Assembly (NCBI RefSeq): GCF_002836255.1
Contig: NZ_PJAU01000057.1
Location: 62,001 to 126,000 of the forward strand
Origin: Colwellia sp. 75C3
GTDB lineage: Bacteria > Pseudomonadota > Gammaproteobacteria > Enterobacterales > Alteromonadaceae
DNA length: 64,000 nt
Direction: 5' to 3'
A program made the translations under genes and the position numbers. The notes beneath the pieces are model-generated. The model saw nothing but the letters and a program-made list of their open reading frames with translations. It had not been told where the DNA came from and made no database searches. Shown one piece after another: positions 1 through 18,059 of the stretch; within the stretch, counting starts at the first letter, position 1, and every line of letters begins with the position of its first letter.

Positions 1-1
1 T

Positions 2-391
2 AAAAACTTTAATGAGAAATATAATGATCATGTCAGAGGGCGTATACAGGCAATCACTCCTGGTTTTTATACACGTATGGGGGCGGCTATACGTCAAGCA
101 ACTAAGGTCATAAGTGAGCAAAAAACAGCGGATAAGTTATTGCTTATTTTAACTGATGGTAAACCTAATGATATCGATCACTATGAAGGTCGTTTTGGTA
201 TTGAAGATACTCATCAGGCAATTAATGAAGCAAAACGCCTAGGCATCAAACCTTTTTGTATATCGATAGATGTTGATGCACAAGAATATTTACCTTACTT
301 ATTTGGTAATGATGGTTTTACTCAAATATTAAGGCCGGCGCAATTACCTATACGTTTACCGCAATTGTACCATCAGTTGACTTCACATTAG
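2..391 (+). CDS. norD: NorD-like VWA protein, C-terminal part (cut by window start)
   Basis: The reading frame is open from base 2, so the 5' part lies outside the window; about 129 residues are visible. They show the end of a von Willebrand A domain: a TPGFYTRMGAAIR segment (the MIDAS-side helix typical of NorD), then LLILTDGKPND and a Rossmann-like end with LGIKPFCISID. NorD-family proteins are cytoplasmic VWA partners of a MoxR-type AAA ATPase (NorQ) and are needed to activate cytochrome c nitric oxide reductase. The next gene encodes a DnrP-like protein, which fits a denitrification or NO-detoxification locus. The family call is good from the motif; the role is inferred because norB, norC and norQ would lie upstream of the window. 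Confidence 0.82.
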   Translation, partial: KNFNEKYNDHVRGRIQAITPGFYTRMGAAIRQATKVISEQKTADKLLLILTDGKPNDIDHYEGRFGIEDTHQAINEAKRLGIKPFCISIDVDAQEYLPYLFGNDGFTQILRPAQLPIRLPQLYHQLTSH

Positions 392-1258: not shown

Positions 1259-1621
1259 ATGACTAAAGTGTTAGTTGTTGATGACTCAAACTCAATAAGA
1301 GACATGGTCAGTTTTACCCTAAAAAGTGCCGGTTACCAAACCGTCGAAGCTAAAGATGGTCAAGATGGTTTAAGTAAAGCGCAAACCTGTGATTTTGACT
1401 TAGTTATTTCAGATGTAAATATGCCAAATATGGATGGTATTAGTTTATGTACTGAACTACGAAAGTTAGCTAACTTTAAATTCACTCCTATTTTGATGCT
1501 AACAACAGAAAGCTCTACCGATATGAAAATGCGTGGAAAAACGGCTGGCGCAACAGGGTGGTTAGTGAAACCGTTTAATCCCGAAAAATTATTAGCCACC
1601 ATTAAACGTGTGGTTAAGTAA
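1259..1621 (+). CDS. cheY: CheY-type response regulator
   Basis: A 120-residue stand-alone receiver domain. The acidic pair Asp8-Asp9, phospho-acceptor Asp52 (SDVNMPNMDG), Thr82 and Lys104 (VKPF) are all in place. It is the expected output or phosphate-sink partner of the CheA that follows 129 bp downstream. SD-like GAGGAAACCAGT precedes the ATG. In Che2-like clusters such a CheY may not bind the flagellar motor, so its target here is open. Confidence 0.92.
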   Translation: MTKVLVVDDSNSIRDMVSFTLKSAGYQTVEAKDGQDGLSKAQTCDFDLVISDVNMPNMDGISLCTELRKLANFKFTPILMLTTESSTDMKMRGKTAGATGWLVKPFNPEKLLATIKRVVK

Positions 1622-1750
1622 CATTGTTGGCATCAATGTCTGTTCAATCGTTTTAGTACATCTATCGAACTTATCTTAAGTACCTATTATATAAGTACTT
1701 TGTTGTGGTAATTTCCCTGGTTTTGACAAGGAAAGAGTAGGTAATCTGTT

Positions 1751-3865
1751 ATGAGTGTCGATTTATCACAATTTATTCCAAGTTTTTTAGAAGAAAGCTT
1801 TGAAGGACTCGAGTTGATGGAGTCCGGACTATTAGATTTAAAACCGGGTGACAATGAGACTATTCACTCAATTTTTAGAGCTGCTCATTCGATCAAAGGC
1901 GGTGCTGGTACCTTTGGTTTTGATAGTGTTACCGAATTTACTCATTTAGTCGAAACCTTACTCGATGAAATGCGAGATAACCGTCGAGAAGTAACCAGTA
2001 AAGATACCGAAATATTACTGGACTCGGTCGATTGTATGCGTTTGTTGATTGAAGCCGCTCGCGATGATGAAGATTACGATCATGACAAGGTATCGAAAAC
2101 CTCGGCAAGATTATCTGAAACCTTAGGTGAACAACAATCAACCGAAGGTGACAGTGAAATTGAACATGATGATAGTAAAAATGGTGGCAGTGGTTACCAC
2201 ATCAAATTTATTCCTGAGCATAGCTTAGCTAAAACGGGTAATGATCCCATCTTCCTTTTTAGTGCGTTAGCTGAGCTGGGCGAGTTAACCATTTGTGCTA
2301 ACACCGAAGAATTACCTGCATTGATGGATATTGATGCACAAGAGCTCTACTTAAGCTGGCAATTAACGCTTATCACAGAAGCAGAAGAAGCTGAAATAAT
2401 AGAGATTTTTGAATGGGTTGAAGATGAATGTTTATTGGAATTAGAGCCGATAACAGATATATCTGATGAAGAGACTAGTCAAAACTTAGCAGAGGATGTT
2501 AATTCAGACGTTAATCAATCAGCCGGCGCTCCCCAATCAAACAATGTCGCCAATCAAGAGCCTCTTGATAGTAATGAAGTAGCTGCAGTCGTTGAAAATA
2601 AAAATAAAGAAACTAAAGGTAAAGCAAAAGCCGACTTAGGCTCAATTAGGGTTGGTGTCGATAAAGTTGATAGTTTAATTAACTTAGTCGGCGAGCTAGT
2701 TATCACTCAATCTATGTTGTCCGAATTAGGCAATGATTTTGACATGAGTAAAGTTGAACGCCTGACCAGTGGTCTTGAACAACTTTTACAAAATACCAAA
2801 GAATTACAAGAAAGTGTCATGCGTATCCGTATGCTGCCTATCAGTTTTGCTTTTAATCGCTTCCCTCGACTTGTACACGACTTAGCCATAAAGACGGGTA
2901 AGGAAATGGAGTTAGTGATTAGTGGTGAACAAACCGAGCTAGATAAAACGGTAATGGAACAAATTGGTGATCCATTAGTACATCTAGTAAGAAATGCTGC
3001 CGACCATGGCATTGAATCTAAAGAAGTTAGACTTGCGAGTGGTAAGCCAGAGAAAGGCACCATTTCATTAGATGCTTATCATCAAGGTGGCAATATTGTT
3101 ATTGAAATTAAGGATGATGGCGCAGGTATCAATACAAAAACAGTGTTAGATAAAGCCATTGATAAAGGCCTTATAGACGCCAATGCTACCTTAACGGATA
3201 GTCAGGTTTATGATTTATTATTTGAGCCTGGATTTTCTACGGCGGCTGAAGTTACTGATATATCGGGCCGTGGTGTGGGTATGGATGTCGTAAAACGTAA
3301 CATTCAATCATTAGGAGGCAGAATTCAAGTTGAATCTGCTTTAGGTAAGGGCAGCACTTTCAAAGTAAACCTACCTTTAACACTGGCAATATTAGACGGC
3401 CAGTTAGTCAAAGTGGGCACTGAAACATACATTATTCCACTTATTTCAATTGTTGAATCACTACAAATTGATAATACCCTCATTAACCGAGTTTCAGGCG
3501 ATATGGTTCTTTATCGATTACGTGATGACAATGTTCCTGTTTTACCGGTATATAAGATGTTTCATTTAGAGACAGAATGCACAGAAATTGATAAAGCATT
3601 ACTGGTTGTAGTTGAAGCTGATGGGCAAAAAATTGGTTTGATGGTGGATGATTTGTTGGCTCAGCAACAAGTGGTAATAAAAAGCTTAAATGATAATTAT
3701 CAGCAGGTTGCAGGGATATCCGGCGCTACAATTCTCGGTGATGGCTCTGTCGCAATGATACTAGATATACCAGGAATGATAATGATGGCATTAGAGCAAG
3801 CTCAAAAAGCCCAACGGCTAAGAACTGATGGAACTAGCCATATCGCTGAGGAGGTCTGTTTATGA
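1751..3865 (+). CDS. cheA: chemotaxis histidine kinase CheA
   Basis: A 704-residue CheA with the full set of domains. The N-terminal HPt carries His46 in AAHSIKGGAGTFGF. An acidic linker region with a small alpha/beta domain covers about residues 145-240, and a low-complexity acidic linker follows to about 285. The dimerisation helix begins at RVGVDKVDSLINLVGELV (about 300). The ATPase has the N-box HLVRNAADHGIE (about 412), DDGAGI, and GRGVGMDVV (about 507). The C-terminal CheW-like domain runs from about 540 to 690. The stop overlaps the start of cheW by 4 bp (ATGA), so the two are translationally coupled. CheA phosphorylates CheY and CheB in response to receptors; the soluble receptor at 5089 is the obvious input. 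Confidence 0.95.
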   Translation: MSVDLSQFIPSFLEESFEGLELMESGLLDLKPGDNETIHSIFRAAHSIKGGAGTFGFDSVTEFTHLVETLLDEMRDNRREVTSKDTEILLDSVDCMRLLIEAARDDEDYDHDKVSKTSARLSETLGEQQSTEGDSEIEHDDSKNGGSGYHIKFIPEHSLAKTGNDPIFLFSALAELGELTICANTEELPALMDIDAQELYLSWQLTLITEAEEAEIIEIFEWVEDECLLELEPITDISDEETSQNLAEDVNSDVNQSAGAPQSNNVANQEPLDSNEVAAVVENKNKETKGKAKADLGSIRVGVDKVDSLINLVGELVITQSMLSELGNDFDMSKVERLTSGLEQLLQNTKELQESVMRIRMLPISFAFNRFPRLVHDLAIKTGKEMELVISGEQTELDKTVMEQIGDPLVHLVRNAADHGIESKEVRLASGKPEKGTISLDAYHQGGNIVIEIKDDGAGINTKTVLDKAIDKGLIDANATLTDSQVYDLLFEPGFSTAAEVTDISGRGVGMDVVKRNIQSLGGRIQVESALGKGSTFKVNLPLTLAILDGQLVKVGTETYIIPLISIVESLQIDNTLINRVSGDMVLYRLRDDNVPVLPVYKMFHLETECTEIDKALLVVVEADGQKIGLMVDDLLAQQQVVIKSLNDNYQQVAGISGATILGDGSVAMILDIPGMIMMALEQAQKAQRLRTDGTSHIAEEVCL

Positions 3866-4389
3866 ATATACAAGCTATGGCACAAGATGTTCCTGTGGAA
3901 GGGGAGCACTCAGTCGAAGGTATTGACTTTATTACCAGCGGTGATCAATACCTAACTTTTCTCTTAGCAGAAGAACAATATGCGGTCGATATTTTGTGTG
4001 TTGAAGAAATAAGAAGTTGGGAGCAGCCAACAAAAATTCCTAATGCACCAAGTTATATAAAAGGTGTCATTAATATGAGAGGAATAATTGTTCCCATCGT
4101 CGACTTACGACTTAAGTTTAGCATTGGTCACGCTAATTATTTAGAAACCACGGTAGTGATAGTGCTTACTTATCAAAGCGAAGACAGATCACGCACTATT
4201 GGTTTTGTTGTTGATGCTGTTTCCGATGTGCTCAATGTTGAACAAGCTGATATTAAACCAGCACCAGCATTTGGCGGCTGTGTAGGTCAGCAATATATTG
4301 ATGGCTTAATTAATAGTGAGAATAAGGTGGTAACAGTTCTTAATGTTGCTCATTTACAACAAGTAGAAAAGCATAGATTGCAAAGTTAA
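3862..4389 (+). CDS. cheW: CheW coupling protein (first copy)
   Basis: A 175-residue CheW-like SH3-type domain (YLTFLLAEEQYAVDILCVEEIR, then PSYIKGVINMRGIIVPIVDLR). It couples the receptor signalling tip to CheA. It overlaps cheA by 4 bp, with AGGAGG about 12 bases before its ATG inside cheA. Compared with the second copy it has an N-terminal extension of about 30 residues before the domain, and it ends soon after the domain. Two different CheW proteins in one cluster are common and may set array stoichiometry. Confidence 0.93.
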   Translation: MNIQAMAQDVPVEGEHSVEGIDFITSGDQYLTFLLAEEQYAVDILCVEEIRSWEQPTKIPNAPSYIKGVINMRGIIVPIVDLRLKFSIGHANYLETTVVIVLTYQSEDRSRTIGFVVDAVSDVLNVEQADIKPAPAFGGCVGQQYIDGLINSENKVVTVLNVAHLQQVEKHRLQS

Positions 4390-4455
4390 TGTTTATTCTC
4401 AGTTACTAGTCATTTGATGAGTAATAACGAAACTATTTTGTTTAAAGGAAAGATC

Positions 4456-5001
4456 ATGGCAGATATAGAACAAGAGTATCTTACTTTCATTCTTCAAGGA
4501 GAAGAGTATGGCGTTGACATACTCTGTGTACAAGAAATTCGGGTTTGGAGCTCTGTCACTGAATTGCCTAATAAACCTGACTATATCAAAGGGGTAATTA
4601 ATCTTCGAGGTGTCATTATACCTATCATTGATCTACGCCTACGGTTTGGTCAGCCACCACTTGATTATAACGAGCAGACCGTCACCATTATATTACGGCA
4701 GCAATCTACCAGTATGGTTGTTGGTATTGTGGTTGATGCTGTGTCAGAAGTTTACAAATTTACCACTCAATCTATACGTAAAGCCCCCGCTTTTGGCAGT
4801 AGTATTGATGGCTGTTTTCTAAAGGGATTAGTATCAGTCGAAGAAAAGCTGATTATCTTACTTGATAGTGACTCACTGTTAAACGAGGACGACTTATATC
4901 GCACTGTCCAACGTAATGAAGCAAGTACAGTTCAGCAGCAAGCTAAAACCGATAGTAACTCTACACTAAGTAGAGACGCACCCTCCTTGTCTAGTGCTTA
5001 A
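4456..5001 (+). CDS. cheW: CheW coupling protein (second copy)
   Basis: A 181-residue CheW-like protein (YLTFILQGEEYGVDILCVQEIR, PDYIKGVINLRGVIIPIIDLR) with a Ser/Gln-rich C-terminal tail of about 35 residues. The ATG at 4456 is preferred to an in-frame TTG at 4414 because AAAGGAA sits 5 bases before it and the CheW domain begins right after it. It lies 66 bp after the first cheW and 87 bp before the receptor gene. It probably pairs with the same CheA and receptor; the tail has no family I recognise. Confidence 0.93.
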   Translation: MADIEQEYLTFILQGEEYGVDILCVQEIRVWSSVTELPNKPDYIKGVINLRGVIIPIIDLRLRFGQPPLDYNEQTVTIILRQQSTSMVVGIVVDAVSEVYKFTTQSIRKAPAFGSSIDGCFLKGLVSVEEKLIILLDSDSLLNEDDLYRTVQRNEASTVQQQAKTDSNSTLSRDAPSLSSA

Positions 5002-5088: not shown

Positions 5089-8000
5089 ATGACCCCAAAT
5101 CAAATAAGTTTAGTGCAAAAAAGTTGGAAAAAAGTATTACCCATCGCGCCTCAAGCCGCAGAGATATTTTATACCACTTTGTTTGAAATGGATCCTTCAT
5201 TAAAAACATTATTTTCTAGTGATATTGCCGAGCAAGGCAAAAAATTAATGGCGATGCTCGACACCGCAGTAAAGTTACTTGATAACCCTGATAAGTTAAT
5301 TCCGGCAGTGCAAAACTTAGGTGCTAAGCACCTTAAATATGGGGCCCAGTCAGAACATTACGACACGGTTGGCGCAGCGTTACTGAAAACGTTGGCACAA
5401 GGTCTCGGTGCAGACTTTACTGCCCCGACAAAAAAGGCTTGGACAGCGGTATACCAAACTTTAGCAACTACTATGATTGCTGCAGCTAATGATGCCGCAT
5501 CAACCCAATCAGCAAAAGGACCTACTATGAAAAAGAATACTGTCGAACAAAAGCAGAACAATGATTTAAACGCAAAATTTCAGGGTGCACTTGATCAATC
5601 TGCTACGGCATTTATGATGATAGATAGAGATTTTAATGTAACTTATGCCAACCAAGCGACGTTGTCATTATTAAAGCTACATGAAAAAACCTTTGCAGAT
5701 AATTGGCCTGGTTTTGATGCAAGTAGCGAAGCCATTCTTTCTGCTAACATAGACAGTTTTCATAAACAACCTAGTCACCAAAGAGAATTATTATCAGACC
5801 CAAGTAACCTGCCATACAAAACAGATATTAGTATTAAACATTTAACTTTTGAATTAAACGTTAGTGCCATCATGGATGATGCCGGCGAATATATTGGTAA
5901 TGCGCTTGAATGGCAAGATGTTACTTTAACAAGACAACAACAAAATAAAGCGGTACAGCTACAAGGTGCGATTGATCAATCAGCTACTGCCAATATGATG
6001 ATCGATAGAGATTTTAATATCACCTATGCTAATGCCGCGACCCTCGCGCTATTGAAAGAACATGAAAAAACCTTTGCCGATAATTGGCCTGGGTTTAAAG
6101 CGGATGCTGAATCGGTGATGGGTACCAACATTGATACTTTTCATAAAGATCCAAGCCATCAACGTAAATTACTAGCGGACCCAAATAACCTACCTTACAC
6201 AACTGATATTCAAATAAAGCATTTAACGTTTGAACTGAACGTTTCCGCTATTATGGATGCTAATGGTGAATATATTGGTAATGCATTAGAGTGGTCAGAT
6301 GTAACCGCAATGAGGGAACAAGAAAATAAAGCAGTGCAACTACAGGGCGCCATTGATCAATCTGCTACCGCCAGTATTATGATAGATAGAGATTTTAATA
6401 TCACCTATGCTAATGCAGCAACCCTCGCGCTATTAAAAGAGCATGAAGCAACCTTTGCCGATAATTGGCCTGGTTTTACCGCAGATCCAGAAGTGATTAT
6501 CGGTACTAACATTGATAGCTTCCATAGAAATCCAAGTCATCAACGCAAGTTATTATCAGATCCAAATAATTTACCGTACACAACCGACATTCAAATTAAA
6601 CATTTAAGTTTTCAACTTAATGTTACCGCAATTCTAGACGCTTCAGGGGACTATATTGGTAATGCTCTGGAGTGGCAGGATGTCACCGCTGCTCGTGCTA
6701 AGTCGGTCGAAGTTGGTCGATTAACATCTACTATTGAAGGCATGACAACCAATGTAATGATGGCTGATACTAAAGGCAATATAGTGTATGCCAACCCATC
6801 AGTTGCCACCATGTTACGTCGCCGAGAAGCGCAACTTCGTACTGTATTACCATCGTTTAGTGTTGATACCATGGTAGGTACTAATTTTGATACCTTCCAT
6901 AAAAATCCAGCTCATCAGCAAAACTTATTAGGAAATCCTGATAATTTGCCGTACACCACTGAAATATCAGTTGTTGGTCTAACTTTCCAACTTATAGCCA
7001 TTGCATTAAGAGATGAAGAAGGAAATCATGTTGGCACGGCTGTTCAATGGGTCGATTTAACCGAAGAAAAAGATGCGCAGGGTCAAATAGATAGCTTAAT
7101 TACCGATGCTATAGCGGGTAAGTTAGATAGCCGCATTGAAACTGCTGAATATCAAGGCTTTATGAAGGAGTTAGGTGATAATATTAATAACTTGATGAAT
7201 TCAATTGTTGAACCGATTAATGATGCCATTAATATTGCTCAAGCACTTGCTGATGGTGATTTAACTAAAACAATGCGTAATGATTATGGTGGTGAGTTCT
7301 TAGCACTTGCTAATGCCATGAACGGCTCCATTGAAAACTTAAGCAATATGGTTGATGAAATACGTGATGCTTCTACCAATGTCTTTGATTCAGCTCGTGA
7401 AATAGCATCTGGTAACAATGAGCTTAGTCATCGTACTGAATCACAAGCTTCAAGTTTAGAAGAAACAGCTTCTGCCATGGAAGAATTAACCAGTACCGTG
7501 CAGCAAAATGCTGAGAATACCACTGAGGCAAGTAAGTTATCTGTATCAGTAATGGATAAGGCCAGTAACGGTGGTGCAGTGGTTCGAAATGCTATTACTG
7601 CGATGAGTGATATTAATAAATCGAGTAAAAAGATTGCTGACATTATCAGTGTTATTGATGAAATTGCTTTCCAAACCAATTTACTTGCTTTAAACGCTGC
7701 GGTAGAGGCGGCAAGAGCAGGCGAACAAGGACGAGGGTTTGCGGTAGTTGCCGCTGAGGTAAGAAACTTAGCACAACGCTCTGCCGGCGCAGCTAAAGAA
7801 ATTAAAGGGTTGATTAACGACAGTGTCGAAGCGGTAGGTCAAGGCACTAAGCTAGTTGATGAAACAGGGCAAACATTTAGTGAACTTGTCACTGCGATTG
7901 AAGATGTAAGTAAAATGATTGCCGATATTGACAATGCAGGTAAAGAGCAGTCTGCAGGCATTGGCGAAGTAAGCGCTGCAGTGGGCCAAATGGATGAAAT

Positions 8001-8268
8001 GACTCAACAAAATGCTGCACTAGTTGAAGAGGCCGCCGCTTCGAGTAAATCGATGGAAGAGCAGTCTCAGTCACTATTAGACCAAGTATCATTTTTCAAT
8101 AATGGTGAAACAGCGCAACAACCGGTAGCTGAACAACGTCAAAGTAGAGCTAAACCTAGAGCACCAGCAGCTCCAGCCGCTAGGCAGTCGAATACCAAAG
8201 CGCCTAGGCCAGTACGAGCAGCTAAACGCCCAAGTACAGCGGGTGATCAAGAGTGGGAGGAGTTTTAA
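5089..8268 (+). CDS. soluble chemoreceptor: globin + 4 PAS + MCP signalling domain, CheR-binding tail
   Basis: A 1059-residue chemoreceptor with no transmembrane segment. Residues 1-140 form a globin of flavohaemoglobin type: Tyr28 (B10), Phe42 (CD1), Gln49 (E7) and His81 (F8) line up with E. coli Hmp Tyr29, Gln53 and His85. Four PAS domains start at about residues 165, 292, 419 and 546, spaced 127 residues. Each has an F-H-x-x-P-x-H-Q segment (His225/230, 352/357, 479/484, 604/609) and a last-strand Trp (275, 402, 529, 654). HAMP-like helices and an MCP hairpin with tip [22 protein letters not shown] (about 858) follow. The last five residues, EWEEF, fit the xWxxF pentapeptide that tethers CheR and are close to GWEEF of P. 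aeruginosa McpB/Aer2. I infer an O2 or NO receptor of the Aer2 class with an added globin. Haem binding is not proven. Confidence 0.93.
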
Positions 8269-8329: not shown

Positions 8330-9238
8330 ATGACTGAGCTAAGAGGAAATATGAGTAACAGGCAAGGTCATCCAAAAGATCGTGGTCTTAATAGAGACCA
8401 AGCTATGCAACTTTCAGATGATGATTTTAAATTCATCTGTCAGTTTGTTTACGAAAACACGGGTATAGTTCTCAATGATAGTAAAAGAGAGATGTTATAC
8501 AGACGATTAACGCGCATTGTTAGAGATCGAAAACTCAACTCATTTTCTGAATATAGTCAGTTGTTAAGAGACCAAGGAGATAAAGAAAAAGATTTTTTTA
8601 TTAATGCAATAACAACCAATTTAACCAGTTTTTTTAGAGAAAACCATCACTTCGAATATTTAACAAAAGAAGAAATACCCGCTTTATTAAAAAGTAAGAC
8701 TGCAGGATCCGATGGTAAAAAGCGTTTACGAATTTGGTCTTCAGCAAGTTCAACGGGTGAAGAGCCATACAGCATTGCCATAACGCTACTTGAAGCAATG
8801 AAAAAGGACTTACCTCACTGGGATATAAAAATTCTGGCAACAGATATTGATAGTGAAGTGTTAGCTAAAGGAAAAGCAGGCGTTTATGATGTTAACCGTA
8901 TTGAAGACATTCCACAAAAAATTAAGCAGGGCTATTTTTTTCAAGGACGTGGGAAAAGCAGTCAAAGTGTCAAAGTACATGACAAGCTCCAAAGCATTAT
9001 CACATTCAAACAACTAAATCTATTACATGAATGGCCGATTAAAGGACCATTTGATGCCATATTTTGTCGAAATGTCATCATTTATTTTGATAAAAAAACT
9101 CAACACGAATTGTTTGCCCGTTATTTTGAGTTGCTAGCCCCCGGAGGTTTACTTTTTCTAGGGCATAGTGAGAACTTAGGTAACTATCAACAATATTTTA
9201 GTAATGTTGGCAGAACCATTTTCAGGAAACCGTATTAG
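8330..9238 (+). CDS. cheR: CheR chemoreceptor methyltransferase
   Basis: A 302-residue (or 295-residue) SAM-dependent protein-glutamate methyltransferase. It has the N-terminal helical domain, then RIWSSASSTGEEPYSIAI (SAM site) and the late FCRNVIIYF motif. It methylates the receptor upstream, whose C-terminal EWEEF is the expected tether. The start is ambiguous: ATG 8330 follows AAAGGAG by about 11 bases, and ATG 8351 follows AGAGGAAAT closely. The longer form is given. It sits 61 bp after the receptor gene; a 230-bp gap with a repeat element then separates it from cheD. Confidence 0.93.
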   Translation: MTELRGNMSNRQGHPKDRGLNRDQAMQLSDDDFKFICQFVYENTGIVLNDSKREMLYRRLTRIVRDRKLNSFSEYSQLLRDQGDKEKDFFINAITTNLTSFFRENHHFEYLTKEEIPALLKSKTAGSDGKKRLRIWSSASSTGEEPYSIAITLLEAMKKDLPHWDIKILATDIDSEVLAKGKAGVYDVNRIEDIPQKIKQGYFFQGRGKSSQSVKVHDKLQSIITFKQLNLLHEWPIKGPFDAIFCRNVIIYFDKKTQHELFARYFELLAPGGLLFLGHSENLGNYQQYFSNVGRTIFRKPY

Positions 9239-9284
9239 GTTTATGTTTACCCGTTACATTTGAATAGGCATGATTCAGCAGGAA

Positions 9285-9418
9285 TTAGAAACGCCTTTAG
9301 CCAAGGCATTGATTGAAGAGAATGGTTACTCAGGAGAATGTGCTCCTGCATTCTCTAGGAAGCTACATCCATGTAGCGTCTTTTTAAAAATCAATAACGA
9401 AGCATAAAGCGTTTCTAA
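9285..9418. repeat. inverted-repeat element, copy 1 (between cheR and cheD)
   Basis: A 134-bp non-coding element bounded by a perfect 10-bp terminal inverted repeat, TTAGAAACGC at 9285-9294 and GCGTTTCTAA at 9409-9418. Inside are AAGGCATTGATTGAAGAGAA (from 9303, continuing TGGTTACTC) and AATCAATAACG (9389). The same interior blocks occur in opposite orientation at 30328-30413. Relative to that copy this one has about 50 extra bases that can fold into small hairpins (AGGAG...CTCCT, GCTACAT..ATGTAGC). It looks like a non-autonomous palindromic element; no coding content. Confidence 0.7.
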
Positions 9419-9469
9419 ACCAGCATCTTCAAGTGGATCGGGTATCAACCATTAAGTCGAGGATATTTT

Positions 9470-10129
9470 GTGCAAAGACATGATCACCCACAGTTATCTG
9501 AATATATGGATCAGTGCTTACCTGAATTTAAGCAAGTTAACCATTATTGGGATAGGCAAAGGGATATGGTGGTTGCTAAAATTTTACCCGGTGAATTTTA
9601 TATGACCACGGAGAATGTCGCGATCGCCACTACGTTGGGCTCATGTATTTCTGCCTGTATATGGGATGAACGTAGTCGAATCGGTGGTATGAATCATTTT
9701 ATGTTACCGATCACCAATAAAGAAGCGCATGAAGTAAATTGGGGCCAAAGAGAAAAAACAGGTGATGCAACCCGTTATGGAAATTTTGCCATGGAACATC
9801 TAATTAATATTATTTTAAGATCAGGTGGTAGAAGGGGAAATTTACGCGCTAAGGTGTTTGGTGGAGCTAAGGTGCTTAATCAAATGTCTGATGTAGGGCA
9901 AAAGAATATTGATTTTGCCTTAGCTTATTTAGATCAAGAAGAAATTTTTATTGAAAGTAGTGATATTGGCGATGTATTTCCAAGAAAAGTGATTTTTGAA
10001 CCGCGTAGTGGCCGTGCTTTTATTAAGCGACTCGATAACCTGCATAATGACACTATTATCCGACGTGAAAATGACTATAGCAGTCAAATTTATAAAAAAG
10101 AGGTGAGTGGCGATGTTGAGCTTTTTTAA
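9470..10129 (+). CDS. cheD: CheD receptor glutamine deamidase
   Basis: A 219-residue CheD. Catalytic Cys59 (TTLGSCISACIWD) and His76 (GGMNHFMLP) are both present, followed by AKVFGGAKVL. CheD deamidates glutamines of receptor helices and in some systems binds CheC. The start is GTG at 9470, with GAGG 8 bases upstream. The protein is longer than Bacillus CheD at both ends and finishes in SGDVELF, an acidic tail ending Leu-Phe also seen at the ends of the small MCP (11280) and the response regulator (14654). It precedes cheB by 26 bp. Confidence 0.93.
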   Translation: MQRHDHPQLSEYMDQCLPEFKQVNHYWDRQRDMVVAKILPGEFYMTTENVAIATTLGSCISACIWDERSRIGGMNHFMLPITNKEAHEVNWGQREKTGDATRYGNFAMEHLINIILRSGGRRGNLRAKVFGGAKVLNQMSDVGQKNIDFALAYLDQEEIFIESSDIGDVFPRKVIFEPRSGRAFIKRLDNLHNDTIIRRENDYSSQIYKKEVSGDVELF

Positions 10130-10155
10130 TCATCTCAGTGAAGGAGTCAAATACC

Positions 10156-11283
10156 ATGGATATAATTAAAGTACTTATCGTTGATGATTCTACGGTAATT
10201 CGAAACATAATCAGAGAATCTCTTAGCCATAGCCCACATATAAAAGTGGTTGGCGAGGCTGAAGATCCTTTGGTTGCTCGTGACCTTATCAAAAAGTTAA
10301 ATCCTGATGTATTAACCTTAGATGTAGAAATGCCAAAAATGGATGGTATTACTTTTCTAATTAATCTTATGCGTTTACGTCCTATGCCAGTGATTATGCT
10401 TTCGACTCTCACCACTAAAGGAGCTGATATAACGTTGCAGGCTTTGGAAATTGGCGCCTTAGATTTTATTGCTAAGCCAACAGTACAAGAGTTAATGGCA
10501 ACTCAAGACAGCTTTAAGGAAGTATTGATAGAAAAAATTACTCAGGCTGTAAAGGTTGATCAAAAGAATTTTAAATTATCAGATACCTTAGCAAATAATA
10601 CTGCAAGTAATAAAACAACCAAAAATATTGGTAATGTTTTATCCTTTGTCGGTGTTAAACGCGCTAATCACCTCGTTGCCCTTGGTGCTTCAACAGGTGG
10701 TACGGAAGCGATAAAAAAACTATTGATAACGCTACCAAGTAATTCGCCAGCTATTGTTATCACTCAACATATTCCAAAAACATTCAGTTTACGGTTTGCC
10801 CAACGCTTGAACGAAACTTGTCAGGTTGAGGTACATGAGGCTAGTCACGGTCAAAAAATAAAAACTGGACATGTTTATATTGCTCCGGGAGATAAACACC
10901 TAGAAGTGGTTCATAAAAACGGGGCATTGTTTTGTACTTTAAGTGATGGCGATGAAGTTAATCGTCATAAACCGGCAGTAGATGTGTTATTTGATTCTGT
11001 CAGTAGTTTAGCTGATAACGTACAAGCTGTTCTGTTAACTGGCATGGGTCAAGATGGTGCTCAAGGAATGTTAAGGTTAAAAAACCTCGGCGCTAGAACC
11101 GTAATACAAGATAAAAACTCCAGCCTTATTTGGGGAATGCCAGGCAGGGCGCATGCCATTGCTGCTCATACTATGGAGGCACCTTTAACTGATATTGCCA
11201 AGCATATACTTGATTATGCTTCTTTAAATCGAATACAGATGCAGGACGTCTTAGCAAAAAGTAGTGTTGGAAAAGCTCTATGA
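10156..11283 (+). CDS. cheB: CheB receptor methylesterase / response regulator
   Basis: A 375-residue protein. The N-terminal receiver has Asp10-Asp11, Asp56 ([10 protein letters not shown]) and a Lys in AKPT. The C-terminal methylesterase has the triad Ser179 (GASTGGTE), His205 ([16 protein letters not shown]) and Asp300 ([10 protein letters not shown]). ATG 10156 is chosen over an in-frame GTG at 10138 because AAGGAG lies between them, 9 bases before the ATG. It removes methyl groups from, and may deamidate, the receptor. Its stop overlaps the next start (ATGA at 11280). Confidence 0.94.
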
Positions 11284-12507: not shown

Positions 12508-12813
12508 ATGACTATTAACAATAAACTTTCAGCAGATGGTAAACAGCTTGTCATTTCAATTGATGAGCGTTTTGATTTCTCTCTACATCAACAATTTCGT
12601 GACTCATACAACAGTTTAACGACTCAAGAGCTAACCTATATTTTAGATTTAAGCCAAACTGAATATATGGATAGCTCGGCACTTGGTATGATTTTATTGT
12701 TAAAAGACCACGTACAACTTCATGCGGGACACCTTATTATCTCTAAGCCGAGTGATACCGTAAGAAAAATATTAGAAATAGCGCAATTTCAGCGTTTAAT
12801 GACGATTGAATAG
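12508..12813 (+). CDS. STAS anti-sigma factor antagonist (HsbA/CrsA-like)
   Basis: A 101-residue STAS domain with the classic phosphorylation loop EYMDSSALGMIL (Ser56/Ser57), so it can be switched by a kinase-phosphatase pair. The next gene, 57 bp downstream, encodes exactly such a REC-PP2C-HATPase protein. This pairing matches P. aeruginosa HsbA/HsbR and Shewanella CrsA/CrsR, where the antagonist controls an anti-sigma factor (FlgM or a stress regulator). Its partner here is not in the window. Family confident; target inferred by analogy. Confidence 0.88.
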   Translation: MTINNKLSADGKQLVISIDERFDFSLHQQFRDSYNSLTTQELTYILDLSQTEYMDSSALGMILLLKDHVQLHAGHLIISKPSDTVRKILEIAQFQRLMTIE

Positions 12814-12870
12814 CATTTTTTATTATCGGGTTAAAATTTAGGCCTAACCTGTAGATTGTAAGGACGTGAT

Positions 12871-14619
12871 ATGTCTCCAAGCCAAAAACTTGCACTTGTT
12901 GTTGATGATTCTAAAATGCAATGTAAATTGCTGTCTGTATTGCTGGAAGAAGAAAATTATCGCGTAGTGGTTGCAAATGATGGCGCAAGTGGTGTGCAAA
13001 TGTACATTGATCACCAACCTGATCTTGTCTTAATGGATATCAATATGCCCATTATGGACGGTTTTGAAGCGACGAGAAGAATCAAAAAGTTTTCGGGGGT
13101 AGGTAATCTAGCACCCATTATTTTCATCACTAGTATGGACAGTGAACAAGCTTTTATTAAGAGTGTTGATGCGGGAGGGGATAGTATTTTAGTACGGCCT
13201 TTTACCCCTAACGTGTTTAAAGCTAAAATAAAATCGATGCAAAGAATAAGTGATTTAGTAGAACAGGTGAAAGGCCTACAACAAGAGCAGCAGAATGATG
13301 CCGAACTTGCTGAAAAAATGATGTCGAATGTGATTGAAGCAAGAAATTTTGCGCTAGACAAAATTGGCGTGATTAAAAAGCCCGCCACCATTTTTAGTGG
13401 CGATATCCAATTAAGTGCTTTGTGTCCTAATGGTGATCTCCATGTGCTACTTGGCGACTTTACCGGCCATGGTTTACGTTCTTCTATTGGTGCAATTCCT
13501 GTAACTGAAACGTTTAGAGCGATGACTAAAAAAGGTTTCTCTATTTTAGAGATTATCGCTCAAATCAACCGACAAATGCATACTTTACTCCCCGGTGATT
13601 TATTCTTTGCAGCAAGTTTTGCGAGTATTTCAGAACATGAAAAGTCAGCATATATTTTTAATGCAGGCTTACCCGATGGTTACCTATTTAATGAAGGTGC
13701 AAAAATTATACAGCAGTTTGCCTCAACACATCCCCCGTTAGGAATTTTACCGCAACTATTGCCCGATGCTCAACTCGAAGTGATTCAAGTCAAAAGTAAT
13801 GATCGAATAGTATTTATCACTGATGGAATTGTCGAAGCAAGAAACCCACCAGGAGAACTTTTTGGCTTTCCTCGGTTTGAAAAAGCAGCGATAGAGGGCA
13901 TAGAAAATAAAGATTTAATTAGCTGTGTGCTAAGAGAGCTTGATGACTTTTGTCAACATTGTGAGCAAGAAGACGATATCTCTTTAGTCGATATTCCCTG
14001 TAGTGGCTGGAAAAAAATTAAAATCACCAATAAGGTCGCGATACCTGAAGGATTTTCCGAAGAAGACAATTATTTTGGAATACCACAAGGCGCCTTACCA
14101 ACGTGGTCTTATCATTTACACTTAACAGGAAAATTATTAAAGACAGTGAATCCTATTCCTTTAGTGATGAGTCAAATTAATGATCTGGAAGGTGCTGGCG
14201 AACACTGGCAGAGCTTATATACTATATTAACCGAACTTTTTATTAATGCCTTGGACCATGGGGTCTTAGAATTAAATTCATCGTTAAAAGACTCAGCGGA
14301 AGGTTTTAGTCAGTATTTTAATGAGCGGGCAAAACGTTTAGATAAACTCGCTGGAAATGTTATTAATGCACCTAATGATTTTGTCAGAATTTCATTGAAA
14401 TACTTCCCACTTTCGCACGGTGGGAAAATGGTTATTAACATTAAAGATAGTGGTCAAGGATTTGAAGTATTAGATGTTATAAAAGATAACAGCATTGCAA
14501 TGAATGACGGTCTAAAATTAAGTGGCCGAGGAGTCGAATTAGTCAACCAACTCTGTGATACCTTGGAATATCAAGAAAAAGGTACTTTAGTGACTGCAAG
14601 TTATATTTGGCATGTTTAA
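12871..14619 (+). CDS. REC-PP2C-HATPase partner-switch regulator (HsbR/CrsR-like)
   Basis: 582 residues in three parts. The receiver has Asp12-Asp13 and phospho-acceptor Asp56 in LMDINMPIMDG. The SpoIIE-type PP2C phosphatase runs from about 160 to 380, with SGDIQ, LGDFTGHG, ITDGIVEA and EDDISL metal-site motifs. The C-terminal RsbW/SpoIIAB-like ATPase runs from about 410 to 580, with ELFINALDHG, DSGQGF and GRGVELVNQL. One chain can thus both phosphorylate and dephosphorylate the upstream STAS protein under control of receiver phosphorylation. The hybrid kinase at 15811 is a candidate phosphodonor. Architecture equals HsbR and CrsR. Confidence 0.92.
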   Translation: MSPSQKLALVVDDSKMQCKLLSVLLEEENYRVVVANDGASGVQMYIDHQPDLVLMDINMPIMDGFEATRRIKKFSGVGNLAPIIFITSMDSEQAFIKSVDAGGDSILVRPFTPNVFKAKIKSMQRISDLVEQVKGLQQEQQNDAELAEKMMSNVIEARNFALDKIGVIKKPATIFSGDIQLSALCPNGDLHVLLGDFTGHGLRSSIGAIPVTETFRAMTKKGFSILEIIAQINRQMHTLLPGDLFFAASFASISEHEKSAYIFNAGLPDGYLFNEGAKIIQQFASTHPPLGILPQLLPDAQLEVIQVKSNDRIVFITDGIVEARNPPGELFGFPRFEKAAIEGIENKDLISCVLRELDDFCQHCEQEDDISLVDIPCSGWKKIKITNKVAIPEGFSEEDNYFGIPQGALPTWSYHLHLTGKLLKTVNPIPLVMSQINDLEGAGEHWQSLYTILTELFINALDHGVLELNSSLKDSAEGFSQYFNERAKRLDKLAGNVINAPNDFVRISLKYFPLSHGGKMVINIKDSGQGFEVLDVIKDNSIAMNDGLKLSGRGVELVNQLCDTLEYQEKGTLVTASYIWHV

Positions 14620-14653
14620 ATGTCGTTAAGGTTGCACAAAAAGGAATTGTAAG

Positions 14654-15814
14654 ATGATAAAACACAATTTATTAATTATTGATGATGACATTGACTACTT
14701 AAACTTATTAGCAGAAAGTTTAGAGGACACCTTCGAGGTGAAATGTGCAAGTAACTTAGCCGCTGCAAAGGATTTACTGCGCGAAAATATACAATTCGAT
14801 ATCGCCTTAGTTGATGAACATATTGGCAATGAAAAAGGCTCTGTCTGGATAAAGGAGCAGCAGAGCAACAATAATTCACCGACGTCATTTATCTTGTATT
14901 CAGGCATGGCAACCGAAGAAGCACTACTTAAAGGTTTGGAGTGTGGTGCAGATGACTTTTTAGCAAAACCATTTTCTTTATTAACCCTTCACTCCAAGCT
15001 TGATAAACTTATTGTTTACCAGGATAAAATCCATGATTTTGAAGATGAAATTCAATCAAAAAATAATGTAATCAACGTTTCAATGGCACAAGCTTCAAAG
15101 TATGGAAGCTGCATGCAATTGACTTCAAAACTTAATCATTGCTTTACCTACGAAAAAATTCGCGATGAAGTTTTTTCTTATTTTCACAGTATGGATTTAC
15201 ACGGCTGCATTGCATTTTACCCTATCAATGACAAACCTAGCTTCTATAGTGCTCAAAAAGGTGTGTGCTCTCCCGTAGAAATTGAAGTAATGGAGCTATT
15301 AAAGGTAAAACCTCGTCTTTATCGTTTTGGTTCAAGAACTATTTTTAACCATGCCTTAGTCTCTTTATTTATTCTAAACCTAGAAGAAGGCACTATTGAC
15401 ACTGATATATATATTGATGCCTTAGCGTCAGTTATTGAATGTATTGGCGCTAGAATGGCGTTTATAACCTATAAAAATTCTTTGGTGGATGTTCAAGAGC
15501 AAATAAAGCGAGCGGTGAGCACCACTAAAAAAATGGTTGAAATTTCCAAGCATCATCAACAAGAAGTGATGAATGAAATAGTGCAAAAAATGGGTACTAG
15601 TTTTCATATTTTAGATATGTCACAAGAGCAAGAAGATTTCCTCACCGAAATGGTACATGGAGCACTTAAAAAACATAGTCAAGATGATATAAATTTTTTA
15701 GAAGTCACCCAATTGCTTGACCAAGCGCTTAACAGTGTAGATCAGCTTCAACAGTTAAACACTGAAAATGACGAAGATGATAATGATATTGATGATGAGG
15801 ATGAATTATTTTGA
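14654..15814 (+). CDS. response regulator with unrecognised C-terminal domain and acidic tail
   Basis: 386 residues. The receiver covers about 1-120, with Asp10-Asp12 and phospho-acceptor Asp54 (LVDEHIG, not the common DxxMP), Ser in LYSG and Lys in LAKPF. A coiled coil follows (about 120-150), then a region of about 130 residues that I do not recognise and that lacks HTH, GGDEF, EAL or PP2C motifs. A second helical stretch (about 270-320) leads to a strongly acidic tail ending DDEDELF. The stop overlaps the start of the kinase gene by 4 bp, so the pair is likely a cognate two-component set. The output mode is unknown, probably protein binding. Confidence 0.8.
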   Translation: MIKHNLLIIDDDIDYLNLLAESLEDTFEVKCASNLAAAKDLLRENIQFDIALVDEHIGNEKGSVWIKEQQSNNNSPTSFILYSGMATEEALLKGLECGADDFLAKPFSLLTLHSKLDKLIVYQDKIHDFEDEIQSKNNVINVSMAQASKYGSCMQLTSKLNHCFTYEKIRDEVFSYFHSMDLHGCIAFYPINDKPSFYSAQKGVCSPVEIEVMELLKVKPRLYRFGSRTIFNHALVSLFILNLEEGTIDTDIYIDALASVIECIGARMAFITYKNSLVDVQEQIKRAVSTTKKMVEISKHHQQEVMNEIVQKMGTSFHILDMSQEQEDFLTEMVHGALKKHSQDDINFLEVTQLLDQALNSVDQLQQLNTENDEDDNDIDDEDELF

Positions 15815-17985
15815 ACTCACAATCACTAGACTTAACACACAAAGTACTAACTGGCATTGATGAGGCCTACTGGCAATGGGACCTAGTCAATGAACATATC
15901 TTTTATTCAGCCCAATTAACGAAAATACTTGGCTATGCCGATGAAGAGAAAATTGGTGAAAGTATTTTATGGGAGAAACACCTCGATAGTCATAACCTCA
16001 ATGCTGTGCATCAGCAAATACAGCAACATCTTAAAGGCTACATTGATCGTATTGATGTCACTATCCCAATAGTCAATAATCAAGAACAAGAACTATGGCT
16101 ACATGCAGTTGGTAAGGTGGTTGAACGTATTGATGGTCGAGCGAGTTTAATGTTTGGTACAGTGAAAGACGTTACTGCTACTAAAAATATGATAGTGAAG
16201 TTAAAAAAACAAAATGATTGGTTAATGTTAGCGGAACGCATCAGTAATTCAGGTCACTGGCGCTTTGATATCCAGTCAGCAACACTTGACTGGTCAGCCG
16301 AGATATTTCGTATACATGGATTGAATAATAAGTCGAAAATACCTGACTTTGAAAGTGCGGTTGATGCCTTGCGGGAAAAAGATAGATCTAAATTTCGTAC
16401 TAGTTTTCATAATGCTATTCATCAGCAACAGCCATTTCACCTTAAAACACAGCTAATACAGCCAACGGGTAAGAAAGTTAAAGTAGAGATTATCGCTGAA
16501 GTTGAACGAGATAGTAAGGGTGTAGCTCTAGCGGTATTTGGTGTTTACAAAGATATCACACGTAGTGAAGATCTTTTTGAAAAATTAAAATTATTGGCAA
16601 TGGTTAATTTTACTATAAAAGTGCCAATATTTTTTATTGATGATAATGATAATGTCGTTTACCAAGACATATCCCCTCATCATGATGGTGCGAGTGCGGT
16701 ACTTTTTAATTATATTAATTTCAGTATTACTGAATATATGGAATATAAAAAGCAGGCGAAAGAACAAGGTCAAATTAAAGAAAATAATGTCAGTTTTGAT
16801 AAATACACTTCAGTATTTGACCTATCTGTTACCTATGAAGCAGATGAAGGTATCTATATTTGGATAGTTGAAAATGTAACCGACAAATTCCGTACAGAGC
16901 AACAGCAAGTAATTTCCAATCGCCTAGCGTTATTAGGAAATACGTTTGGTAATGTCTCCCATGATATTAATAATGTATTAGGTGTTGCTCTTGGTGCCAT
17001 TGAAATGTTGGAAATAAAATTTTCTCGTGGCGAACAAGATATTTCGTCATACATAGATAGAGTAAAAAATGCCATAGACAAAGGTAAGGATGTTACTGAG
17101 CGGTTATTAGCCTTTACTCGCAAACCCACGGTGAAAGTTGTTAGTTTCGACCCTATTCAAGATATTTATGATAATCAATATCTGTTCAAGCAGTTGTTGT
17201 TAAGTACGATTAACGTTACCTTTAAATTTGAGCCTATGCACTGTTTGATAAATTTCCCTCAAGGGGAATTCATTAATATTTTGTTGAATTTAGTACTTAA
17301 TGCTCAAGATGCTATACAAGAAAAAGGGCTAAGTGGTCACATAGAGATTTCAGCTAATTTACTTGAAAGCAATCGTTTAGAAATTCATGTTAAAGATAGT
17401 GGTGTAGGCATTGCCAAAGAAAACCTAACGAAAATATTCGATCCATTTTACAGTTCGAAATCAGTAAATAAAGGCAATGGTATTGGCTTGGCTAATGTTT
17501 ACAGTACTATGTATAAACATAATGGTCTGATTCAAGTTGAAGGCGTCAGTGACATTGGTGGAGCGCACTTTACCCTTGTTTTTAAATGCAAAGTATTAAA
17601 AGAAAAATATTTAGCTAAAGAATCAAAAACATCATCTTTAAGTTATAAAAATACAAATATTTTAGTGCTAGATGATGAAATAAGTATTGCTGAATTTGTC
17701 GCGCTGTTTTTAGATAGCAAGGGGGCAAATGTTGTTGTTGCGAATAATAAAGAGCAACTAATCGAAAAAATTAATGGCGACATTGTCTTTGATATATTCA
17801 TTACCGATATGATTTTACCTGATTTATCCGGTAAAGAGGCCGTGGGAATGGTGTTAGAGAAATTTCCAGATATAAATATATTCTCAATTAGTGGTTATAT
17901 TGCCATTGAAGATAGGAGTTGGGAATACCCTGTACTTAGGAAGCCATTCAATTCTAAAGAGTTAGCTGAATTTTTAGCTATATAA
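15811..17985 (+). CDS. PAS-PAS hybrid histidine kinase with C-terminal receiver
   Basis: 724 residues, soluble (no hydrophobic helix). PAS-type sensor domains lie at about 10-130 (AYWQWDLVNEHIFYS) and 140-255 (SGHWRFDIQSATLDWS), followed by a third, divergent sensor-like stretch to about 365. The HisKA box is NVSHDINNVLG (His384). The ATPase has NLVLNAQDAI, DSGVGI and FDPFYSSK...GNGIGLANV. The C-terminal receiver has Asp666 (ITDMILPDLSG) and Lys in RKPF. The start codon is TTG at 15811, overlapping the upstream stop (TTGA). It probably acts on the upstream regulator and perhaps on the REC-PP2C protein. Confidence 0.9.
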   Translation: MNSQSLDLTHKVLTGIDEAYWQWDLVNEHIFYSAQLTKILGYADEEKIGESILWEKHLDSHNLNAVHQQIQQHLKGYIDRIDVTIPIVNNQEQELWLHAVGKVVERIDGRASLMFGTVKDVTATKNMIVKLKKQNDWLMLAERISNSGHWRFDIQSATLDWSAEIFRIHGLNNKSKIPDFESAVDALREKDRSKFRTSFHNAIHQQQPFHLKTQLIQPTGKKVKVEIIAEVERDSKGVALAVFGVYKDITRSEDLFEKLKLLAMVNFTIKVPIFFIDDNDNVVYQDISPHHDGASAVLFNYINFSITEYMEYKKQAKEQGQIKENNVSFDKYTSVFDLSVTYEADEGIYIWIVENVTDKFRTEQQQVISNRLALLGNTFGNVSHDINNVLGVALGAIEMLEIKFSRGEQDISSYIDRVKNAIDKGKDVTERLLAFTRKPTVKVVSFDPIQDIYDNQYLFKQLLLSTINVTFKFEPMHCLINFPQGEFINILLNLVLNAQDAIQEKGLSGHIEISANLLESNRLEIHVKDSGVGIAKENLTKIFDPFYSSKSVNKGNGIGLANVYSTMYKHNGLIQVEGVSDIGGAHFTLVFKCKVLKEKYLAKESKTSSLSYKNTNILVLDDEISIAEFVALFLDSKGANVVVANNKEQLIEKINGDIVFDIFITDMILPDLSGKEAVGMVLEKFPDINIFSISGYIAIEDRSWEYPVLRKPFNSKELAEFLAI

Positions 17986-18059
17986 AAGTAATAATAATGA
18001 TCTTTGTAGGTATAATAATGCATAGATTAATAATTTGTTTGTAGTCTGGTGATTGCTAA

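Follow-up and report, generated by a model that had tools for sequence, protein, structure and literature searches.

The closest described systems to the gene analysed here are the Aer2 chemoreceptors of Vibrio vulnificus and Vibrio cholerae. The gene lies in a 64,000-nucleotide stretch of Colwellia sp. 75C3 (contig NZ_PJAU01000057.1, positions 62,001 to 126,000; hereafter "the window"), and its product shares with the Vibrio receptors tandem haem-PAS domains, a HAMP region, a Tsr-like signalling domain and a che cluster of its own. However, the Vibrio proteins have two or three PAS domains and no globin in the parts of their descriptions available to us, whereas the window protein and its relatives carry a globin and two to seven PAS domains. 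All three PAS domains of V. vulnificus Aer2 bind haem, according to the accessible part of PMC13401364, a review in which Aer2 proteins are also said to have been assayed in E. coli. We put the probability at roughly two in three that the window gene encodes a cytoplasmic, multi-haem O2 receptor of the Aer2 family with a tethered globin, together with a second, globin-less form made from an internal start codon.

By its sequence, the window protein is an Aer2-family chemoreceptor carrying an N-terminal globin. It scores 1426.9 bits against the NCBIfam model NF041847 ("aerotaxis transducer Aer2"; cut-off 1200), with residues 290-1059 matching model positions 39-804, and a Pfam scan places Globin, PAS, HAMP and MCPsignal domains on it. 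The sequence and locus features expected of an Aer2 were all found: the score, the PAS His and Trp residues, HAMP after the last PAS domain, a Tsr-like domain, the C-terminal pentapeptide and, at the locus, its own cheA, cheW, cheR, cheD and cheB. Residues 656-754 align with residues 134-232 of structure 3vol, and residues 659-755, judged by eye, are probably two consecutive HAMPs. The signalling domain aligns with Tsr (8c5v) as 300 residues to 300 (query 50-349, Tsr 216-515). Most fused relatives read to the stop codon, but not all, end in EWEEF or a near variant (L164 is without it). Hydropathy gave no membrane segment in the window protein, where the highest 19-residue Kyte-Doolittle mean is 1.48.

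The first-pass annotation, made from the letters of the window, had called a flavohaemoglobin-type globin at residues 1-140, four PAS domains, an MCP domain, a terminal EWEEF, no membrane segment and an Aer2-like che cluster, and each of these calls held. It missed the HAMP region (688-752) and the Aer2 family membership, and neither the variable number of PAS domains nor the candidate internal start is in it.

No match to Protoglobin (PF11563, the HemAT class) was found in the window protein at E 0.001, so it is not a HemAT-type globin-coupled sensor. By sequence, its globin is nearest among solved chains to that of HGbRL (3wfw, E 1.7e-27) and to Hell's Gate globin I (HGbI; 3s1i, E 3.9e-27). 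A globin fold is predicted for residues 1-140: when residues 1-280 were modelled with AlphaFold2 (39 rows; mean predicted local distance difference test score, pLDDT, 82.2), a globin fold and a PAS fold resulted, and in Foldseek the modelled globin fits 3s1i at 1.1 Å over 130 columns, with the HGbRL chains superposing poorly (19-21 Å; target template-modelling score 0.48). The pocket residues are Y28, F42, Q49 and H81, which we take to be helix positions B10, CD1, E7 and F8, with a further Y91. B10 Tyr, CD1 Phe, E7 Gln and F8 His are the residue set of single-domain globins of the flavohaemoglobin class (F family), and the window globin has both the predicted 3/3 fold and all four residues. 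Pfam and NCBIfam scans found no flavin reductase domain in the window protein, and Hmp, with its FAD/NAD reductase after the globin, is a poor description of it (NF009805 matches residues 19-141 only, at 66.4 bits against a cut-off of 432). The name F family follows PMC3287990, of which part was available.

Comparisons were made over 39 fused proteins: that of the window, those of 25 named loci (L034-L058) and 13 additional ones (L159-L171). The 25 come from a contig scan with a globin alignment, which gave 71 named loci; these 25 are globin-PAS fusions from Colwellia, Thalassotalea, Litorilituus, Glaciecola and an Alteromonadaceae metagenome-assembled genome, 44 are single-domain globins, L064 joins a globin to another PAS type, and L104 could not be read as one frame. 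The fusion extends to the MCP hairpin in 21 of the 25, while the contigs of L037, L041 and L051 end within the receptor and L049 enters a stretch of X. All four pocket residues are retained in the window and in every one of the 25, and they are also intact in L159-L161 and L169-L171. For the globin, the ratio of nonsynonymous to synonymous substitution rates (dN/dS) lies between 0.075 and 0.15 in comparisons with six relatives, and by this measure the window globin is under purifying selection. The closest named globin is that of Colwellia sp. 12G3 (93%).

Within the window's genus, 11 of 25 genomes (its own counted) have the fusion, which is split across two contigs in G019. Long fused frames occur in at least 8 of 394 genomes of the order sample, all in the window's family among the matches listed. 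In the family sample at least 40 of 395 genomes qualify by frame length (three of them at only 373-517 residues), and 13 loci from 12 qualifying genomes were fetched and read. The class sample (369 genomes) has the fusion outside the order in five genomes (G956, G888, G952, G1000 and G982), all of which were read. Three long frames from the phylum sample (G1148, G1175 and G1164) were rejected as fusions, being single globins in chance open frames. The first-pass annotation had called the design unusual and proposed a phyletic search for the globin-PAS-MCP order. It is unusual beside the characterised Aer2 receptors, as far as the accessible part of the review describes them, but with the order found in 25 of 71 named loci it is not unique: it is common in the window's bacterial family, and it is listed in an earlier survey (accessible part of PMC6194562).

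The second part of our reading concerns the linker between the globin and the first PAS domain. In the window protein pLDDT falls below 50 at residues 141-163, the globin-to-PAS spacing in relatives ranges from 19 to 90 residues, and six dN/dS comparisons, over only 19 codons, gave 0.13, 0.36, 0.63, 0.67, 0.87 and 1.10. A linker Met was present in 45 of 45 fused proteins and then in 47 of 47 distinct linkers, compared with 42.7% of 1213 control segments of equal length. The set of distinct linkers was obtained by reducing 93 candidate open reading frames (ORFs) to 51 and then to 47, with L165-L167 and L064 outside it.

The linker Met usually follows a Shine-Dalgarno (SD)-like site. Taking any linker Met, an anti-SD energy of -4 kcal/mol or lower was found in 37 of the 47 linkers, against 3.7% of control segments. 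Other choices of Met gave similar results: 36 of 47 for the 3'-most Met (8.8% of 965 other in-frame ATGs) and, when the Met that opens the final Met run was used, 34 of 47 (10% of 793 further linker positions). For this last choice, which takes a single Met from each linker, mean SD energy was -5.27 kcal/mol, compared with -1.22 kcal/mol at the 793 other positions. Averaged over linkers, the signal peaks at that value directly 5' of the ATG and otherwise lies at 0.1 to -1.5 kcal/mol upstream and -0.2 to -3.1 kcal/mol downstream, past the overlapping windows. The SD-like site occurs in all three codon frames (25, 12 and 9 of 46), and among divergent linker groups the Met is present in 26 of 26 and the site in 21 of 26. 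The mRNA near the internal ATG is weakly folded (-2.07 versus -5.04 kcal/mol). By hand count, the short product would have 28 residues ahead of the Phe in its first PAS strand, compared with 29 in the globin-less receptor L016. The comparison of linkers points to a ribosome-binding site and ATG maintained in the linker, so that the gene would give both a globin-Aer2 and a globin-less Aer2; an internal start yielding the latter is likely.

Several observations weigh against this reading. Synonymous shuffles that hold the residues fixed average an SD energy of -4.01 kcal/mol, compared with -5.25 kcal/mol observed, and just 3 of the 47 linkers individually reach P < 0.05. Because the residue-fixed shuffles already reach -4.01 kcal/mol, most of the SD signal lies in residues that are kept. 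Depending on the rule, 10 to 13 of the 47 linkers are without a site of -4 kcal/mol or lower (L155-L157 are at -2.1), and the P values for the linker Met and SD site ignore shared ancestry. The N-terminus of globin-less L012 is about 18 residues longer before PAS1 than that of the short form (hand count). The full-length AlphaFold2 model (22 rows, mean pLDDT 63.1, predicted template-modelling score 0.26), used for domain folds alone, is weak beyond the globin and PAS domains. Globin haem-pocket residues are lost by alignment in 7 of the 13 additional fused proteins (L162-L168), a figure which is not a rate since these proteins were chosen for inspection, and the globin haem would therefore be dispensable in some lineages. 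Finally, the role of Aer2 in native aerotaxis is described as debated in the accessible part of PMC13401364.

The linker Met could also be the leftover start of a formerly separate aer2 gene, and the alternative that survives best, although we doubt it, is that Met and SD-like site are relics of that start without function, left when the gene joined a globin gene. The near agreement between the short form and L016 is what a relic would leave, although L012 is longer. However, the linker varies freely, with dN/dS from 0.13 to 1.10 and diverse sequence and length, yet the Met is there in all 26 divergent groups. In addition, no unfused globin-aer2 neighbours were found among 82 loci with flanks of varied length, where the one row listed (L112) is a fused gene. 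In a protein outside the set of distinct linkers, L064 (positions 3048-3750, Oxalobacteraceae), a globin is followed by a different PAS type before the contig ends, and the linker has a Met with a strong SD-like site (-8.6 kcal/mol).

We prefer an Aer2 receptor made in two forms, and we propose how it would work by analogy with characterised Aer2 proteins. Each PAS domain would bind one haem via its His, with O2 beside the Trp. The last PAS domain would relay the change through HAMP to the hairpin, setting the activity of the CheA encoded nearby, and CheR, CheD and CheB would adapt the receptor. O2 is the proposed ligand because of the kinship with Aer2; the globin may bind haem and O2, possibly also nitric oxide (NO). 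Because the linker is loose and variable and has no helical register with the PAS domains, the globin is probably a tethered second gas-binding input or modulator and not an in-line one as in HemAT, and the share of globin-bearing subunits in one array could be tuned by the cell. A fuller version of this proposal, which we hold at slightly better than even odds, is that the linker ribosome site and ATG, kept within and outside the window's order while the linker scrambles, yield two O2 receptors, that the ratio of starts sets the gas response of the array, and that the PAS array varies by tandem duplication, with up to eight predicted haems per subunit.

If instead the globin were an in-line gas sensor driving the PAS array and HAMP directly as in HemAT, perhaps for NO, its N-terminal position and its intact distal Tyr/Gln and proximal His would fit, as would the NorQ-type cluster and truncated globin just upstream in the window's genome. 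We consider this unlikely, as a low-confidence linker of 19-90 residues stands against the fixed register of the PAS domains, and the gene neighbourhood does not favour NO. The first-pass annotation had seen a "nor gene tail" beside the receptor. The tail belongs to a 618-residue VWA protein, ahead of which lie a CbbQ/NirQ/NorQ-type ATPase, a COX3-like protein and a truncated globin (L021 7611-12391, the tail being window positions 1-391); no model named the VWA protein, and NorD, like NorE, is a gene name that we presume. A truncated globin inside a NorQ-type group is odd in itself. Only 9 of the 25 named loci have a NorD-like VWA gene upstream (in L039 a fragment at the contig end), and 8 of 25 have a truncated globin there, some flanks being short. 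By contrast, cheY-cheA-cheW-cheW precede the receptor in the same order in all 25, cheR-cheD-cheB follow it in all 22 whose contig extends, and all seven genes are present in 13 of 13 further loci. Because nor-type genes adjoin the receptor in a minority of loci, any NO linkage is local or weak, and we rejected an NO receptor tied to nor genes as a general reading. Of the O2/NO role that the first-pass annotation proposed, the O2 part stands through Aer2 kinship and the special O2/NO part does not.

It is less likely still that the globin fold is mainly a structural cap (serving folding, dimer contact or spacing), with haem secondary. The case for a cap is that a globin-derived N-terminus persists in L162-L168, within the same che cluster, although F8 His, CD1 Phe or E7 Gln is gone: the alignment shows partial loss of the pocket in L162 (F8 His to Arg), in L163 and L164 (CD1 and E7) and in L165-L168. 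Five of these were scanned for PF00042, which is still recognised in L162 and L163 but, at E 0.01, not in L165, L167 or L168. However, the pocket is kept in the window and all 25 named loci, and the globin's dN/dS is about 0.1. A role as a gas-reactive guard that buffers O2 or destroys NO beside the PAS haems would suit a flavohaemoglobin-class pocket on a loose tether, but it is improbable for a protein without a flavin reductase domain and with one molecule per receptor, which is a small sink. In the globin tree, L160 and L162 sit among single-domain globins with weak support and the decayed globins are on long branches; one origin is compatible with the tree, and we draw no conclusion about the number of fusion events.

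Three proteins of the window's family (L165, L166 and L167) have, at the same che-cluster position, a decayed globin-like N-terminus followed by another PAS type, in four, three and two copies respectively (identified as PAS_3 with Pfam in L165 and L167 and by inspection in L166), which would represent module replacement behind the same cap. Genome G513 combines both kinds: one of its two che clusters holds L170, whose globin is intact and whose PAS domains are Aer2-type, and the second holds L166, in which the globin is decayed and the PAS domains are of the other type.

Each PAS domain of the window keeps both haem-site residues, so five haems per subunit are predicted, four in the PAS domains and one in the globin with its intact pocket. 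PaAer2 Trp283 is, we presume, the O2-side Trp, its numbering derived by hand from the alignment to 4hi4. PaAer2 His234 is the PAS haem ligand (accessible part of PMC13401364). PAS1 matches the Aer2 PAS structure 6ceq by sequence (E 4.6e-21), as well as 3vol and 4hi4, and its modelled fold (1-280 model) is that of the V. cholerae Aer2 PAS domain 6ceq at 1.2 Å in Foldseek. In the full-length model the strand and helix order of PAS1 is found in all four PAS domains, with helices joining them.

A hidden Markov model (HMM) built on the window's four units located 129 units in 36 of the 39 fused proteins and no Aer2-type unit in L165-L167; seven units are counted twice because L052 and L171 are identical in sequence. 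All 128 readable units have the His234 equivalent, and the Trp283 equivalent is present in each of the 125 units readable there; a second His is found in 127 of 128, with Arg replacing it in unit 2 of L054. Among complete named relatives, 21 in all, the receptor has two modules (4 proteins), three (8), four (1), five (5), six (2) or seven (1). Adjacent internal modules within one protein are 78-100% identical in DNA (rounded), and units 2 and 3 match without interruption over 353 of 372 bases in L034 and over 325 in L045. First modules are 62-76% and last modules 41-48% identical to the others, leaving aside the cut L051. With four cut-off units aside, the PAS-to-PAS spacing is 127 residues (57 cases) or 125 (32 cases, before the last module), and Tandem Repeats Finder reports a 381-base tandem array in the window. 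These patterns suggest that the PAS array expands and contracts via tandem duplication. Several arrays come from draft genomes, and some contigs break inside the array, so array lengths are safer for L043 (six modules, longest identical run 56 bases) and for the single-contig genomes G422 and G513 (four). Outside the window's order, L187 (3068-6643, minus strand) mixes Aer2-type and PAS_3-type modules behind a globin in one protein.

Table 1. Features of the receptor gene and its che cluster, in window coordinates.
Feature	Position	Strand	Remarks
cheY, cheA, cheW, cheW	1259..5001	+	Upstream; best named chemotaxis models CheY, CheA, CheW, all below cut-offs
Receptor ORF	5089-8268	+	1059 aa, coordinates exact
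Globin domain (residues 1-133), flavohaemoglobin/single-domain class	5089..5487	+	PF00042 residues 27-129, E 1.3e-18
Globin-PAS1 linker (residues 134-155)	5488..5553	+	Variable in sequence and length, low model confidence
AAGGA Shine-Dalgarno-like core	5516..5520	+	6 nt before internal ATG; -5.3 kcal/mol
Internal ATG (Met147), predicted second start	5527..5529	+	Predicted short product of 913 aa, a globin-less Aer2
PAS1 (156-279)	5554..5925	+	His225, Trp275, equivalents of Aer2 His234/Trp283
PAS2 (283-406)	5935..6306	+	His352, Trp402
PAS3 (410-533)	6316..6687	+	His479, Trp529; 81% DNA identity with PAS2
PAS4 (537-658)	6697..7062	+	His604, Trp654; divergent last module, DNA 43-46% identical to others
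HAMP region (residues 659-755)	7063..7353	+	PF18947 688-751, PF00672 702-752
Tsr-like kinase-control/signalling hairpin	7354..8118	+	MCPsignal 817-972; limits set by eye
EWEEF C-terminal pentapeptide	8251..8265	+	Read from ORF translation
cheR, cheD, cheB	8330..11283	+	Downstream; CheD and CheB above, CheR below model cut-off

Beyond cheB and a small MCP gene, window positions 12508-19418 encode a STAS protein, a receiver-SpoIIE phosphatase-ATPase protein, a receiver protein, a PAS hybrid kinase (by eye) and a receiver-GGDEF-Hpt protein. These genes suggest a partner-switch and cyclic di-GMP branch fed by the che cluster.

The family described here bears on why some Aer2 receptors have several haem-PAS modules. 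It is a natural series of two to seven modules, some freshly duplicated, in one conserved che cluster, and together with natural globins that are without haem residues it provides a ready set for testing what each haem contributes. If the internal start is used, a chemoreceptor gene would add or omit a whole sensor domain through the choice of start codon, which would be a cheap way of tuning the receptor array, and an annotation with one protein per gene would be incomplete.

The combination of PAS, globin and MCP domains is already known: PMC6194562 (2018), in its accessible part, reports PAS, Bac_globin and MCPsignal together in seven proteins from 8,075 complete genomes, including Colwellia sp. 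MT41, Glaciecola nitratireducens and Halioglobus japonicus. That part describes just one of them, a Corallococcus protein, for which it proposes aerotaxis, and it names the globin Bac_globin (PF01152), whereas the globin of the window protein is PF00042. In the six genomes tested, PF01152 was confined to short frames of 122-180 residues, and we rejected a Corallococcus-type receptor with a truncated globin. The variation of the PAS array, the decayed globins and the candidate internal start are new, in that they are absent from the accessible part of PMC6194562 and from the literature matches listed. Those matches, which cover few subscription papers, contain no other account of a globin-PAS-MCP fusion and none of such a gene having an internal start; nor does the accessible part of PMC13401364 mention one for V. 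vulnificus or V. cholerae Aer2.

HemAT and other globin-coupled sensors resemble the window protein in having an N-terminal globin on a cytoplasmic chemoreceptor, but theirs is of the Protoglobin class (PF11563) and they have no PAS array, whereas the window protein joins PF00042 to one. In two distant relatives, L184 and L187, PF00042 is accompanied by weak matches to PF11563 that stay below its cut-off. The nearest solved globins, HGbI and HGbRL by sequence and HGbI by fold, are single-domain or Roadblock/LC7-fused globins and not chemoreceptors. CheA is made in long and short forms, two proteins that arise via an in-frame internal start. More generally, bacterial N-terminal proteoforms give two proteins per gene in this way (accessible part of PMC11005335). 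However, CheA and the other cases are a kinase or other proteins, whereas here it would be a receptor that sheds a whole sensor domain.

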